From Streptomyces sp. Je 1-79 (GTDB lineage: Bacteria > Actinomycetota > Actinomycetes > Streptomycetales > Streptomycetaceae), in NCBI RefSeq assembly GCF_025195125.1, contig NZ_JAMGSL010000011.1, forward strand, positions 124,001 through 188,000: 64,000 bases of DNA, read 5' to 3'. The notes below the pieces were generated by a model. That model searched no databases. It saw only the letters and a program-made list of their open reading frames with translations, and had not been told where the DNA came from. Both the position numbers and the translations under genes were made by a program. Of the stretch, positions 3,937-57,837 are shown piece after piece. Position 1 is the stretch's first letter; every line of letters starts with the position of its first letter.

Positions 3937-4090
3937 GCGAGAGATCGTATAAGTGTTCGCCCTGTGTGTGGAGTGTCTGGGAAGGCCGGGGGATGGCGCA
4001 CACTAGGGAGGCGTTGTCAGTGGGGTCTGTCACTCTCTGTGATGACTGGTGGGCAAGGCGCCAGCGAGGTACGTGGTCGAAGGAGGGTGC
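3937..4090. promoter_or_regulatory. Divergent control region, HNH gene / methyltransferase
   Basis: 154 bp between the start codons of the HNH nuclease and the DNA methyltransferase, the only space available for both promoters. It is visibly richer in A/T than the genome core (for example gatcgtataagtgttc near 3945). No clear C-protein box or long palindrome is evident. Confidence 0.4.
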
Positions 4091-50919: not shown

Positions 50920-50993
50920 TGCGCCGCCAGGGACTCGAACCCCGGACCCGCTGATTAAGAGTCAGCTGCTCTAACCAACTGAGCTAGCGGCGC
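50920..50993 (-). tRNA. tRNA-Lys (anticodon CTT), copy 3
   Basis: 74 bases identical to copies 1 and 2. Its 5-prime end overlaps the last ten bases of the prim-pol-like gene on the same strand; that gene's stop codon TAG lies within the tRNA (GCGCCGCTAG). It must therefore be processed from, or transcribed inside, the upstream transcript. Confidence 0.96.
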
Positions 50994-51655
50994 CTGCTGA
51001 CGTCGTAGACCTTAGCATCCTGATCGGCGGGAGGAAAAATCGAAATCCGCACGTCGGCGGCGGAGGCGGTACGGGCCGCCCGGACGCACGCCCAGAGCAT
51101 GACCTCGGGGCCCGGCAGCCAGGGATGGCGGGTGTCGGGGGCGACCACCCAGCGGGGCCCGGTGGCCTGGAGGGGCGTGAGCGGGGGGATCGTGATGGCG
51201 TCGCCGGTCCCGTGACAGAGCGGCGGCGGAACGGCTTCGCCCCACTCCTCCCAGTGCAGCAGGGCGGGTAACCGCTGGGCGGTGCCGGGCGCGGCGAAGA
51301 GCAGCATCCGGCCCCGGTGGACGGCGACGGGCCCGGAGCCCGGGCCCTCCGCCCAGAGCCGGTCGAGCATCCGGCGGCCGAAGATCGTGTCCACGTTCAC
51401 GACGTCGAAGGCGGTCCCGCAGGGGAGGACGGCGGGGGCGGCGGGCCGGGACTCCCAGAGCGCGAGCGTGGAGCGCGGATACGAGGCGGCGGAGGCGAGC
51501 CAGTCGGCGCCGGCGGCGGTGACGTGCGCGGAGTGGTGGCGGCGGTCGTCCGCGTCCCGGAGGAACCGGAAGATGTCGTGCCGGTCGGCCCGCCGCTCGT
51601 CGGCGTCGCTCTGGGCGGGGCTCAGGGGTGTCTCGTCTCGCAGCCATGCGGTCAT
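50984..51655 (-). CDS. Prim-pol-like (bifunctional primase/polymerase) domain protein
   Basis: 223 residues from ATG 51655. The layout CGTAFDVVNVDTIFGRRML, then PVAVHRGRMLLFAAPGTAQRLP and RWVVAPDTRHPWLPGP, is typical of short Streptomyces proteins annotated as bifunctional DNA primase/polymerase domain proteins. The usual metal-binding DxD of true prim-pol enzymes is not intact here (FDVVNVD), so catalytic activity is doubtful. The stop codon lies in the tRNA-Lys gene. Possible roles in DNA metabolism are speculative. Confidence 0.65.
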   Translation of the reverse strand: MTAWLRDETPLSPAQSDADERRADRHDIFRFLRDADDRRHHSAHVTAAGADWLASAASYPRSTLALWESRPAAPAVLPCGTAFDVVNVDTIFGRRMLDRLWAEGPGSGPVAVHRGRMLLFAAPGTAQRLPALLHWEEWGEAVPPPLCHGTGDAITIPPLTPLQATGPRWVVAPDTRHPWLPGPEVMLWACVRAARTASAADVRISIFPPADQDAKVYDVSRRR

Positions 51656-51854
51656 GACGTCAGGTCTACCGTCTGTGACGAAACAGATTCCGTGTGTTGC
51701 CGGAAACCCGGACAAGGGTGGTGCGAGGGGAGTATCTTTCGCACCGGCATATGCCAGGGGGTGGTGGCGGGGGCGCGTGGCGGGGGCGTGTGGCGACTCC
51801 GCGTCGGGCGCGCCTTCGAGCCGGGCGTCCGTCAGGGCCGGTCGTCCGTCCGGG

Positions 51855-53570: not shown

Positions 53571-54938
53571 TCAGGGCCGCCAGGCCACGCGGTGCTCCGC
53601 CAGGTGGGAGAGGACCGCGTGGTTGGCCTCCCAGCCGTCCGGGAACTTGACCGTGACCCCCAGCTGCACCGGCTCCGTCGAGGGGTGGTCGTCCAGGAGA
53701 TCGGCGACCCCCGCGCGGCAGACCACGATGCAGGCGTGGCGGTGGCGGGAGGCCAGCACGCACAGGCGGCCCGTCTCCAGGTGGAAGGCCGTGGCGTCCG
53801 GGCGGCCCGACAGGGGGTGGAGGACGACCGTCACGTCGTACTCCCGGCCCTGCAGGCGGTTCGCCGTGTCCACGGTCACGCCCGAGACGCCCAGCTCCGC
53901 CAGCGCCGCCCGGACCGCCGCCGCCTGGTCGCGGTGCGCGGTGCCGACCGCGATCCGGTCGGGCGTCAGCGGGACCCGGTCGGGCGGCGGGGCCTGGGCG
54001 GAGCCGAGAGCCGGGGGGAGCTCCGAGACGGTCACGCCGCCCCGGTCCAGGAGCCGGCGCACCACCAGCGCCACCGCCCCCACCGCCTCGGGATCCGTGC
54101 GCGGGGTGTGCCGGGCGGGGAGCTCCAGCAGGCCCCAGCCCGACTCCGCCGCCTCGTCCAGGACCCGGTCGGGACCCGATCCGTCCGACGCCACCCCGAA
54201 CGCGAGCCGCCGCTCGCCGGGGCCCGTACCGCTGCGGAACCGGGTGTACGGGTAGAACGCGTCGGAGACCAGCGGAGCCGCCGACGCCGGCAGCCGCCAG
54301 GACACCGGCAGCCGGTGCTGCGGCAGCTCCGGGTTGTGCGCGAGCAGCGTCGAGACGGCGCTCGCCGACGGGTCGTACGACAGCCCCGCCCACTGCTCCG
54401 CGCCGACCACCGAGAACGGGTCCAACTGCCCCGGGTCGCCCACGAACAGCGCCCGCTCGAAGAGCCCCGCCACCGCGAGCAGCGCGTCCGAGCGCATCTG
54501 GTACGCCTCGTCCACGATGGCGTGCGCCCACGGCTCGACGTTCTTCACGTGCGCCCACTTCGCCGCCGTCGAGATGACCACGTCCAGGCCCGCGAGATCC
54601 CCCGCCTTCGACGACTTCCGTACGTTCTCCAGGTCGTCGAGCGCCTTGTCGTACGGATCGCTGTCGTTGGAGTGCAGCCGCCCCACCGGCAGGTCCGGCT
54701 GCTTCTTCGCGAGCCGCAGCACCAGGTCGTCCACCTGCGCGTTCGTCTGCGCGACCACCATCAACGGCCGTCCGGCCTCCGCCAGTTCGAGGGCCGCGCG
54801 GACCACGAGCGTCGACTTGCCCGCGCCCGGCGGGGAGTCCACGACGACGCCCCGGGCGTCCCCGTGCAGGGTGTCGGCCAGGATGCCCGCCGTGGCCCGC
54901 GCGGCCTCCGCGGACGGGTCGAATCCATCGGGGCTCAC
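53571..54938 (-). CDS. SF1 helicase, Upf1/Dna2-like
   Basis: 455 residues from GTG 54938, overlapping the upstream gene by four bases. SF1B motifs: Walker A SPPGAGKST (35-43), motif Ia QTNAQVDDL (64-72), motif II VDEAYQM (142-148), motif III VGDPGQLDPF (166-175), motif IV region LPVSWRLP, motif V DTANRLQGREYD (357-368) and motif VI RLCVLASRHRHA (391-402). It is short because it lacks inserted accessory domains. Together with the Fe-S RecB-like nuclease at 56542-57837 it supplies the two activities of a Dna2-type enzyme as separate proteins. DNA repair or defence are both possible roles. Confidence 0.88.
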   Translation of the reverse strand: MSPDGFDPSAEAARATAGILADTLHGDARGVVVDSPPGAGKSTLVVRAALELAEAGRPLMVVAQTNAQVDDLVLRLAKKQPDLPVGRLHSNDSDPYDKALDDLENVRKSSKAGDLAGLDVVISTAAKWAHVKNVEPWAHAIVDEAYQMRSDALLAVAGLFERALFVGDPGQLDPFSVVGAEQWAGLSYDPSASAVSTLLAHNPELPQHRLPVSWRLPASAAPLVSDAFYPYTRFRSGTGPGERRLAFGVASDGSGPDRVLDEAAESGWGLLELPARHTPRTDPEAVGAVALVVRRLLDRGGVTVSELPPALGSAQAPPPDRVPLTPDRIAVGTAHRDQAAAVRAALAELGVSGVTVDTANRLQGREYDVTVVLHPLSGRPDATAFHLETGRLCVLASRHRHACIVVCRAGVADLLDDHPSTEPVQLGVTVKFPDGWEANHAVLSHLAEHRVAWRP

Positions 54939-56551
54939 AGCAGGTCCTCCGGCGTCGCGGCGTCGGGCAGTTCGGCGACGTCGGAGCGCGGCGGCCCGCC
55001 GTGCGTCCAGGGCGTCTCCTCCGGGTCGGGAAGCTTCGCGCCCACCCGCTGGTCGTGCTCGAAGAGCGTCCAGGCGATCCGCTCGCCCTTCTCCGGGACC
55101 GATCCCTCCGCGGGCTCCTTGGACCGGCCCATCCGGTCGGTGACCCGCAGCACGAGCGAGCCGTCCTCCTCGTACCGTACGAACTCCACGGTCTGCGGCT
55201 TTCCTTCGAGCGACCGGTACGCCCTGACGCCCGCGCCCAGGTGCGGGCGGTCGTCCGTGCGGACCGTGAGCAGCGGGCGCGGCGACGGGCGCTTCGACTC
55301 CGACCAGGCCATGGTCACGTCCACCACCTCCGCGACGAACGCCTCGCCCGAGAGCCGCCGCCCCGCCATCACCAGCGGATCGTCCAGGGCCTCCTGCGCC
55401 TCCAACTGGCCCTGCGCCGACTCGCGCGCGGCCAGCTTCTGCGCCGCCGAGACCGCGTCGTCGCGGCGGGGCTGCGGCGGCTCACCGGCGGTGACCCGGT
55501 CGCGGTGGCCGGTGAACGACCAGCGGTCGCGGGTCCAGCGGTCCGCCACCCGGGCCCCCTCGGGAAGCTCCCGCAGCAGGTCGAGGGCGCGCCACACCGC
55601 GTGCCAGGTCGGCGTGAGCTGCGAGAGGATCAGCCGGCGGATCTCCCCCTCGGCGCGGTGCAGTTCGCCCAGCCGCTCGTCGGCCGTCTCGCCGTCCTCG
55701 GCCGAGGCCAGCGCCTGCCGGGCCCGGTCGAAACGCTCGATGGCGGGCGCCAGCAGCCGGTTGTCGAAGGCCGGGTCGGTCGCGGGACCGGCCGGTGGGC
55801 AGAGCAACTGCCCGTCGCGGTCCCGCCCGAGCTCGGCCCGCTGCGCCGCCTCCGCCCCCGACTCTCCCCCTCGCTCCGCCGGGGGGACCCCCGCGCCGTC
55901 GGGGTCGACCCAGGCGAGCAGCGCACCGAGATGCTGGTCCTCCAGGGAGGACTGGCCCGTCGCCCAGTGGCGGTTCAGCAGATCCGTCGCCGTGAGCAGC
56001 AGCGAGGAACCCGGCACACGGGCCCGCTCGCCGAAGTGCGTCAGCCACCGGCCGAGCAGCGGCACGCGCGGCGGCGCGGGGAACGGCGTCTCCGGGTCCT
56101 GCTCGGCCGTCCGCCGGAACCGCATCGACCGCCCCAGGAGCCGTACGTACTCGACGCCCGCCCGGCTCGGCACGATCAGCTGCGGCGCGTCGGAGCACAG
56201 CTCGACCTCGACCTTGACCTTCTTCCCGGTCTCGGGGTCGGTCTCGTTCCGCTCCGCCGCCTCGACGAGGTCGGTGAACGAGTCGATGTACGGCAGGACT
56301 TCCTCGGCCAGGTCGGCGAGGAAGGCGAACCGCAGGTCCCGGTCGCGCGGCTGCGCGACCACCAGGAGCCGCGGCTCCTCGCGGTCGGTGCCGACCAGCG
56401 CGCCGAGCGGCGCACCCGCCTCACCGGCCGTGGTCAGCGGTACGAGGACGAGCGGCCGCTCCGCGACGTGCCGGTGGCGGACCGTGGCCAGCGGCTGGGC
56501 CCGCCCGGACTCGACGGCCTCCAGGCGGGCGAGGGTGGCGATCAGAGACAT
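54935..56551 (-). CDS. Unknown partner protein of nuclease-helicase operon
   Basis: 538 residues from ATG 56551. I recognise no domain. The N-terminal ~130 residues look alpha/beta (RPLVLVPLTTAGEAGAPLGA, RLLVVAQPRDRDLRFAF). The middle is helical with runs of charged residues, and the C-terminal part is beta-rich (VTMAWSESKRPSPRPLLTVR, VEFVRYEEDGSLVLRVTD). No Walker, nuclease or membrane motif stands out. It overlaps the nuclease gene by ten bases and the helicase gene by four, so all three are made together and likely form a complex. Confidence 0.8.
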   Translation of the reverse strand: MSLIATLARLEAVESGRAQPLATVRHRHVAERPLVLVPLTTAGEAGAPLGALVGTDREEPRLLVVAQPRDRDLRFAFLADLAEEVLPYIDSFTDLVEAAERNETDPETGKKVKVEVELCSDAPQLIVPSRAGVEYVRLLGRSMRFRRTAEQDPETPFPAPPRVPLLGRWLTHFGERARVPGSSLLLTATDLLNRHWATGQSSLEDQHLGALLAWVDPDGAGVPPAERGGESGAEAAQRAELGRDRDGQLLCPPAGPATDPAFDNRLLAPAIERFDRARQALASAEDGETADERLGELHRAEGEIRRLILSQLTPTWHAVWRALDLLRELPEGARVADRWTRDRWSFTGHRDRVTAGEPPQPRRDDAVSAAQKLAARESAQGQLEAQEALDDPLVMAGRRLSGEAFVAEVVDVTMAWSESKRPSPRPLLTVRTDDRPHLGAGVRAYRSLEGKPQTVEFVRYEEDGSLVLRVTDRMGRSKEPAEGSVPEKGERIAWTLFEHDQRVGAKLPDPEETPWTHGGPPRSDVAELPDAATPEDLL

Positions 56552-57837
56552 GAGCCGCCTCCCCGGCTCGCCGCGATCGCCTCGCCGCGCAGCGCGTGCG
56601 CCCGGCGCAGCGCCTCGACCGTCGGGTCGTCCGGGTCGCCCTCCTCGCCGCGGGCCGCCGCCAGGACCGCCTCGACCGTGGTCAGCCCGCCCAACTCGCC
56701 CCGTACGGAACGGCCCAGCGTCTCCACCACGCCCGCCTGCCGGGCCCGCTCCCGGCAGTGGAAGGCCAGCTCGCAGGCGGACAGGCACTCCGGCGCGTAC
56801 GCGTGCGGAACGGACTCCACCGCGGCCGTCAGCTCCTCCGCGGAGCAGGCCTCCACGTCGAAGGTGACGCCCTCCGGCAGCGCGGCCGCGATGTCCTCGA
56901 TCCGGGTGAGCCGGGTCAGCTGCCGGCGGGTCACCGACAGCTGCTTGCGCACGTCGACGACCGAGGCCGTCGGCAGGTTGGAGAAGTCCTTCGGGCAGAC
57001 GAGGAGCACGCTGTGCGCCACCTCGGCGCCCTCGGTCAGCGCCGCGACCCGCTCCAGGGCCAGCACGTACACCGCCGACTGGCGGGCGGCGGCGCCCACC
57101 TTGGAGGCGTCCGCGGAACCGTCGATCATCGGGAAGGACTTGATCTCCACGACCGTCCACCGGCCGTCGGGGTGCACCACCACGGCGTCCGGCTCCAGAT
57201 ACGCGGGGGAGCCCGCCACCTCCAGGGCCAGCATCGGGTGGTCGAGCAGCGCCCAGCGCCCGGCGGCGGTCGCCTCGCGCAGCGCGAGCGAGGTGCGGGC
57301 GGCGCGACCCTCGGGGCCGGCCGCCGCCAGGTCGGGAACCTGGACCGACCCGGGCTCCTCGATGCCGAGCAGCCGCAGCAGCTCGCGCCCGCCGTCGGCC
57401 TTGACCTTCGCCTCGAAGGCGTTGCCCCGCATGAACGCGAACTGCGACTGCCCGAAGGCGGCGGGCGATCCGAGCTTCGCCGCGAGCGCCGTCTTGTCCA
57501 CCCCGGCGCCGTCGAGCAGCGCGCGCCGTCTGCAGCCCGGGTTGGCGGCGAGCGCCGCCAGCGCCCGCGCGTCCAGTGGGTGCGGGACCACGGCGGGGCC
57601 GCGCAGCTCGGCGAGTTTCTCCCACACTCTCGGCTTCACCGGAGCGGGGGAGACCCCGTGCCGTCGTGTCGTCTGCGGAGGGAGAGGAGCTCCGCTGTCC
57701 AGGGATGCGCTCACCCGCGGAAGTCTCCCATCCGCCACTGACATTCGGTTGCGGTTCCCGCTCGGCGGCGCTCCCGGCCGTGCCGCGGACCGGGTGACCG
57801 GCGGTCCCGCGTCGCCCGGGCGACGCTGCGAATTCAT
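56542..57837 (-). CDS. Fe-S RecB-family nuclease (Cas4/AddB/Dna2-like)
   Basis: 431 residues from ATG 57837 (ATG 57744 is possible; the first ~60 residues are low-complexity). RecB-type nuclease motifs: GNAFE (138-142), Asp217 in LEPDAVVV, Glu231-Ile-Lys233 and QSAVY (253-257). Four cysteines are placed as in Cas4, AddB and Dna2 Fe-S nucleases: Cys101 (NPGCRRRALL) ahead of the domain and Cys351, Cys355 and Cys361 behind it (PECLSACELAFHCRE). It heads the operon with the unknown protein and the SF1 helicase. Its activity should be on single-stranded DNA ends, from family knowledge. Confidence 0.88.
   Translation of the reverse strand: MNSQRRPGDAGPPVTRSAARPGAPPSGNRNRMSVADGRLPRVSASLDSGAPLPPQTTRRHGVSPAPVKPRVWEKLAELRGPAVVPHPLDARALAALAANPGCRRRALLDGAGVDKTALAAKLGSPAAFGQSQFAFMRGNAFEAKVKADGGRELLRLLGIEEPGSVQVPDLAAAGPEGRAARTSLALREATAAGRWALLDHPMLALEVAGSPAYLEPDAVVVHPDGRWTVVEIKSFPMIDGSADASKVGAAARQSAVYVLALERVAALTEGAEVAHSVLLVCPKDFSNLPTASVVDVRKQLSVTRRQLTRLTRIEDIAAALPEGVTFDVEACSAEELTAAVESVPHAYAPECLSACELAFHCRERARQAGVVETLGRSVRGELGGLTTVEAVLAAARGEEGDPDDPTVEALRRAHALRGEAIAASRGGGSCL

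Follow-up and report, generated by a model that had tools for sequence, protein, structure and literature searches.

A three-gene Streptomyces operon for a RecB-type nuclease, a bridge protein, and an Upf1/Dna2-like helicase: a candidate split Dna2-like DNA-end-processing system

The closest described systems to the operon treated here, which lies in a 64,000-nt stretch of the Streptomyces sp. Je 1-79 genome (NZ_JAMGSL010000011.1, positions 124,001 to 188,000; hereafter the window), are eukaryotic Dna2, the TM0106-type proteins, the AddAB/AdnAB/RecBCD group, and the archaeal HerA-NurA-Mre11-Rad50 system. Upf1-type motors carry an N-terminal stalk and barrel, and the motors of AddAB, AdnAB, and RecBCD are UvrD-like members of superfamily 1A (SF1A). 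In TM0106-type proteins (TIGR03491), one chain runs from a RecB-type nuclease through an RNase_H_2 domain and a stretch of some 260 residues to an SF1 helicase. The HerA motor and the NurA nuclease are unrelated to those of the operon. In Dna2 the barrel sits on a two-helix stalk between nuclease and helicase (PMC4716839), and in the archaeal system, motor and nuclease act with Mre11-Rad50 to make 3′ single strands (PMC8910471).

We think it reasonably probable that the window operon encodes a split Dna2-like, three-subunit DNA-end-processing complex, of a kind that would serve both defence islands and the Streptomyces response to DNA damage, because its architecture, the co-occurrence of its genes, and its neighbours all point in that direction. 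No paper on the triad was found in searches of an open-licence library. A sequence-only reading of the window had proposed an operon of three translationally coupled genes, and open reading frames were indeed found on the minus strand at 53571-54938, 54935-56551, and 56542-57837, with overlaps of 10 nt between nuclease and middle genes and 4 nt between middle and helicase genes. The features are as follows.

57722..57744, minus strand: RecA-NDp/PafBC-type promoter motif ATGTCAGTG-N9-AGACT, conserved across core Streptomyces operons.
56542..57714, minus strand: gene for a RecB/Cas4-type nuclease with a predicted iron-sulfur (Fe-S) cluster, 390 aa from a likely leaderless GTG; the open frame from ATG 57837 gives 431 aa.
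54935..56551, minus strand: middle-protein (bridge) gene; its product of 538 aa has a tentative RNase H-like domain at about 31-220, long helices at about 260-400, a beta-barrel at about 396-498, and a PWTHGGPP tail that is conserved.
53571..54938, minus strand: gene for an SF1B Upf1/Dna2-like helicase of 455 aa from a GTG start; residues 36-43 form Walker A.

The first gene product had been taken for a Cas4/AddB-type nuclease with four cysteines, and both its fold matches and its conservation bear this out. The cysteines, whose codons lie at 57534, 56787, 56775, and 56757, are invariant in 86/86 homologues, and the D, E, K, Q set together with the four cysteines is complete in 82 of the 86; the nucleases of L039, L053, L072, and L113 (4/86) each miss two active-site residues and keep all four cysteines. 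The predicted structure (mean predicted local distance difference test score, pLDDT, 91.8) has RecB-type nucleases as its top Foldseek matches (RecE, Cas4 types, AdnA, EXO5, and MGME1). A second structural comparison gives Cas4 at Z 10.6 (root-mean-square deviation, rmsd, 4.6; 198 residues aligned), a DinG chain third (Z 9.7), and then AddB, EXO5, and Dna2 at Z 7 to 9. From this fold and the four cysteines, we predict that the protein carries an Fe-S cluster. Pfam reports PDDEXK_1 at an expectation value (E) of only 0.085, below the cut-off, and a sequence search of the PDB with the nuclease found no RecB-type chain; its two matches there, designed proteins aligned over 31 residues, were rejected. 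Neither the nuclease nor the middle protein had a match in NCBIfam or in PADLOC, where the nuclease/core models of PADLOC 2.0 defence systems were searched.

The assignment of the third gene product to the SF1B helicases likewise held. Its best Pfam matches among 16 families are AAA_11, AAA_30, and AAA_12, with no UvrD model, and the best PDB match of the helicase profile is Dna2 (E 1.5e-13), followed by SMUBP-2 and Upf1; motifs I-VI are largely invariant (68 sequences). PADLOC gave generic helicase matches only, and the NCBIfam matches to PLuB_AAA (47.2 bits, cut-off 999) and IGHMBP2 were also taken as generic helicase similarity. The chain begins 35 residues ahead of Walker A, which starts at residue 36, and there is therefore no room in it for an N-terminal stalk and barrel (1B). 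In G581, G582, and G586 (L078, L079, and L094), the helicase match is broken near residue 53, directly behind Walker A, into two parts with no stop between them; this is perhaps an in-frame insertion.

The middle protein had been described as having an unknown fold. It still has no family match: Pfam gave nothing credible (and no RNase_H_2, PF13482), a PDB sequence search gave no useful match, and phage records gave none, while three matches were found in plasmid records, one of them an 11.85-Mb record labelled plasmid. Its predicted structure, however (AlphaFold; mean pLDDT 89.3, predicted template-modelling score 0.87), yields a tentative RNase H-like domain and a barrel. The top match in the second structural comparison is the 3′-5′ exonuclease region of family B DNA polymerases (Z 9.3, rmsd 4.4, 195 aligned residues spread over residues 30-396), and on the model we tentatively describe the first domain as RNase H-like in fold but lacking catalytic acids that can be recognised. 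That it might be an active DnaQ exonuclease was considered and rejected because the first strand carries no conserved acids; E44 is invariant (88/88), but lies outside any D-x-E motif. For residues 396-498, the 1B barrels of Senataxin (Setx) and Sen1 score Z 8.5 and 7.9, respectively, with unrelated beta-barrels within 1 Z of them; the modelled barrel is probably a 1B domain.

Dna2 and the triad share a RecB-type nuclease with a (here predicted) Fe-S cluster and an SF1B Upf1-like motor in the same order, and the middle-protein gene, with its probable barrel/stalk piece, stands between nuclease and helicase genes, matching the barrel position in Dna2. They differ in that Dna2 is one chain, whereas the window and the fetched named loci have three separate genes, and in that the bridge has an extra, tentative RNase H-like domain. 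The proposal of a split Dna2-like system made from the sequence alone therefore holds for the architecture, in which the middle protein appears to supply Dna2’s intervening barrel, and is kept in conditional form for the function.

The TM0106-type chain has the same module order as the triad. When six triad profiles were compared with four segments of a TM0106 set (13 bacterial proteins, 1091-1209 aa), the best values fell where the order predicts, with P 1.5e-27 for the helicase and P 6.5e-4 for the barrel against the pre-helicase segment, the best among its four comparisons; the RNase H pair gave P 0.53, and the other off-diagonal values were 0.069 or more. The RNase_H_2 domain of TM0106 has a D-x-E motif, unlike the middle protein of the triad. 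In the window genome the best TIGR03491 score is 15.5 bits against a cut-off of 97.45 and lies at another locus, and TIGR03491 and PF13482 gave no match to the window nuclease or to the middle protein. We do not file the triad under Dna2 or TM0106, since a single chain and family scores over the cut-off were both looked for and not found. Strict mutual exclusion of triad and TM0106 was also rejected, as TM0106-type proteins score over the cut-off in 3/16 triad genomes (G245, G357, and G440) and in none of the other 13. The G357 match lies about 7.5 kb from the triad on the same contig and opposite strand. In G440, a distant genome, the divergent triad operon has as its fourth gene one for a TM0106-like protein (L125:5062-6753, minus strand) that combines RecB and RNase_H_2 parts and has no helicase.

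AddAB, AdnAB, and RecBCD resemble the triad in coupling a motor that acts on DNA ends with a RecB-type or, in AddB, an Fe-S nuclease, and the AddB and AdnA nuclease folds align with that of the triad, but the triad has a single SF1B Upf1-like motor and a bridge protein. Likeness to the HerA-NurA-Mre11-Rad50 system lies in the SbcD-SbcC genes that adjoin the nuclease-motor module in some triad loci, although SbcCD is near only 16/105 of them.

The middle gene is present in 186/197 genomes of the order and in 178/181 genomes of Streptomyces, the window’s genus (the latter by subtracting the other listed genera). In a sample of the phylum, the nuclease and helicase profiles pick the same 16/396 genomes (helicase E 1e-20 or better); a five-row model finds the middle gene in 15 of these, and in the 16th it was read at the locus between both partners. 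Outside Streptomyces the triad is rare in this sample, with 4 further of 236 genera. Triad members scattered over other genomes would have told against a functional unit; what we found is co-occurrence, with gene order kept across genera. Of the relatives of the middle gene in named genomes, the best 80 of at least 309 loci were kept, and these have the nuclease in 79, the helicase in 64 (some are cut by contig ends), and an additional gene, gene 0, in 43. For triads with no adjacent helicase gene, a high-scoring helicase relative was found elsewhere in the genome in 16/16 genomes tested, in one case split over contig ends. The test covered 12 of the 16 loci that lack a local helicase (all but L076, L083, L089, and L091), three loci with a gap, and one additional genome. 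The helicase is displaced in the Micromonospora clade, by about 36 kb in G393 (L037/L126-L127) and to 1.0-2.4 kb downstream in L062, L064, and L068. Several neighbour families recur in at least 15 core Streptomyces loci. Related loci are not independent, and L171 and L172 are two copies in one genome; two members of the core Streptomyces clade carry other titles, L107 Streptosporangium and L120 “Actinobacteria bacterium”.

The RecA-NDp consensus is TTGTCRGTG-N8-TANNNT. We searched with a relaxed pattern, TTGTCRGTG-N9-ANNNT, counting at most one mismatch as a match. In the window, the motif upstream of the nuclease runs from 57744 to 57722, and the in-frame GTG at 57714, 7 nt on, is probably the nuclease start rather than ATG 57837. 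Core Streptomyces operons match in 23/23 cases (first set) and 29/30 (second set), or 50/51 distinct operons, the two sets sharing two loci (the window and one other), and an in-frame GTG lies exactly 7 nt downstream in 20/23 and 28/30 (46/51 distinct). The exceptions are L023, with two mismatches, and L010, L043, L096, and L107, with no start codon 7 nt on; L124, whose contig begins inside the middle gene, was left out. By the same measure the motif is absent upstream of the middle gene (0/18) and of the helicase (0/17), before first genes outside Streptomyces (0/60), and at accessory copies (0/18). In six Actinomadura loci, a sequence resembling the motif less closely (3-4 mismatches) stands exactly 7 nt upstream of gene 0; it may be no more than a leaderless -10 box.

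Genome-wide, the relaxed pattern finds 285 sites in the window genome, and its reversed form finds 51. Exact sites with the 7-nt spacing precede recA, a DEAD helicase gene (Lhr-like by eye), dinB, polA, a second family-A polymerase gene, and an alkyltransferase-like gene, and those at other distances precede genes for UDG and a macrodomain protein, among others; 30 of the 38 exact sites were read, several of them preceding doubtful frames, and ten genes were checked by Pfam. For the macrodomain gene this accords with a RecA-NDp promoter already in print (SCO6735; PMC5087735). The operon may be induced by DNA damage through PafBC.

A divergent copy of the triad with gene 0 is found on Streptomyces plasmids, between the DNA-end sensor SbcCD and Wadjet. 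Gene 0 encodes 240-361 aa with no known domain or family match, a charged, coiled-coil-like N-terminal stretch (by eye), and a conserved LRRDEERSFRS...RPYYLC block (e.g., L033:9971-10816); its UVR and rabenosyn matches were rejected as chance level. It is present in 15/189 genomes of the Streptomyces genus (14 loci from 13 of the 15 were read, plus the loci of the other two) and was not found in the window genome (best E 0.285). Beside accessory copies, PADLOC names JetA2, JetB2, and JetA3 (Wadjet II and III) as well as PprPIWI, PprDinG, PprRE, and PprPDDEXK (pPIWI-RE); the triad itself is not a listed component of either system. We screened 105 loci with one query set, in which the Jet2, Jet3, Ppr, and type IV queries were drawn from the same loci after PADLOC naming. 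SbcD/SbcC is near 16 loci, Wadjet near 8 (one weak, L077), and Ppr near 5, and two loci have a type IV match alone, at about 40% identity. At least one of SbcCD, Wadjet (types I-III), Ppr, or a type IV enzyme is nearby in 23/63 loci with gene 0 and in 0/42 without, figures that are descriptive because the defence queries came from loci in the same set.

In a tree of 107 middle proteins, SbcCD-linked copies fall in three clades (5, 8, and 3 members), two of them basal if the tree is rooted on L038/L125, and Ppr-linked copies group in a single clade. Two clades lack gene 0: the entire core Streptomyces clade of 24 members, to which the window copy belongs, and a Micromonospora-type clade of 17. 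Support at the three deepest nodes is 0.81, 0.95, and 0.71 and falls below 0.45 at several inner nodes, so any direction of change, including domestication of an accessory module by Streptomyces, is tentative.

The defence neighbours bear on the suggestion, also made from the sequence alone, that the operon is an anti-phage system. We consider it unlikely that the window copy is itself an immune system, a DNA-degrading complex induced by phage or plasmid damage that would destroy invading DNA ends in the way presumed for its sister copies. Some sister copies do adjoin anti-plasmid and anti-phage systems, including Wadjet types I to III and pPIWI-RE, as well as a type IV restriction enzyme, and the rarity of the triad outside the genus is what one would expect of such a system, but the window copy belongs to a set kept almost throughout the genus, often among the same recurring neighbour families. 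Moreover, the eight neighbours compared with PADLOC include no convincing defence match (one is marginal, E 9.7e-6), and the operon shares its RecA-NDp-type promoter with recA and polA. The anti-phage suggestion suits some sister copies and suits the window copy poorly.

The pPIWI-RE neighbours also touch on RNA-DNA hybrids. A Senataxin-like motor and an RNase H-like bridge might resolve R-loops or transcription-replication conflicts while the nuclease cuts the displaced strand; the Upf1/Dna2-like motor and the tentative RNase H fold would suit this, and pPIWI-RE, a neighbour in 5 loci, has been proposed as a sensor of DNA-RNA hybrids (PMC3702460). We judge this quite improbable, however, as no canonical RNase H/DnaQ acids can be made out in the bridge, the partner nuclease comes from a DNA-end family, and the SbcCD linkage points to DNA ends.

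On two chromosome-sized contigs, accessory copies are found some 24 kb from both ends (L171/L172 in G637 and L174 in G707), and on another, L164 (G674) lies 4.7 kb from one end; a link with chromosome ends is possible. A role in telomere processing or in the transfer of linear chromosomes or plasmids would account for these positions, but accessory copies also occur well within contigs (about 0.5 Mb from an end in G689, over 1 Mb in G604 and G748), a damage-type promoter precedes the core copy, and the triad is kept in genera other than Streptomyces, which together make such a role very improbable.

We therefore return to the split Dna2-like end-processing complex. The three proteins would assemble, with a putative polarity and substrate that allow resection, so that the SF1B motor translocates along single-stranded DNA, the bridge provides the beta-barrel/stalk absent from the motor chain and holds the nuclease, and the Fe-S nuclease cuts the threaded strand; broken ends would be resected or degraded. 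At accessory copies, the neighbouring SbcCD (Mre11-Rad50) would probably open the end, and the module would destroy DNA cut by Wadjet or pPIWI-RE. The window copy, like other core Streptomyces copies, has no gene 0, no SbcCD linkage, and a damage-type promoter, and may act as a repair or resection factor.

Several points weigh against this account. Upf1-like motors act on RNA too. Foldseek with the whole middle-protein model gave nothing below 1e-3 (best E 3.3e-3, to an unrelated chain), its barrel does not rank clear of unrelated ones, its N-terminal half has no sequence-profile support against the RNase H profile (P 0.53), and DnaQ-type or RNase H catalytic acids are not recognisable in its alignment. 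The nuclease matches its TM0106 counterpart weakly (P 0.004), and SbcCD, Wadjet, Ppr, and type IV genes were not found near 82/105 loci. Taken alone, the window motif is not beyond chance, and an S. venezuelae study reports that an initial search suggested that the mycobacterial PafBC motif is not conserved there (PMC9380542).

A wider version of the split Dna2-like reading, which we offer tentatively and with somewhat less than even confidence, is that gene 0, the split nuclease, bridge, and motor, and SbcCD make up a general plug-in DNA-destruction module for unrelated immune systems (Wadjet I, II, and III and pPIWI-RE) that Streptomyces captured into its damage response, a bacterial counterpart of Mre11-Rad50 plus Dna2 resection. 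Immune systems that do no more than cut DNA would then seem to recruit a common shredder, to judge from the place of this one module beside three Wadjet types and pPIWI-RE. If these readings are correct, bacteria couple Mre11-Rad50 with a Dna2-like enzyme, as eukaryotes do, and Streptomyces, antibiotic producers with linear chromosomes, own a near-universal, apparently uncharacterised end-processing enzyme under damage control.

Two further features of the window deserve mention. About 2 kb from the operon, the small protein encoded at 50987-51715 (minus strand) contains a Prim-Pol domain (PF09250, E 4.9e-7). At 4014-4036, an exact relaxed RecA-NDp motif lies 12 nt before a C5 DNA methylase frame, so that, judging from the sequence, a C5 DNA methyltransferase is perhaps also under damage control.

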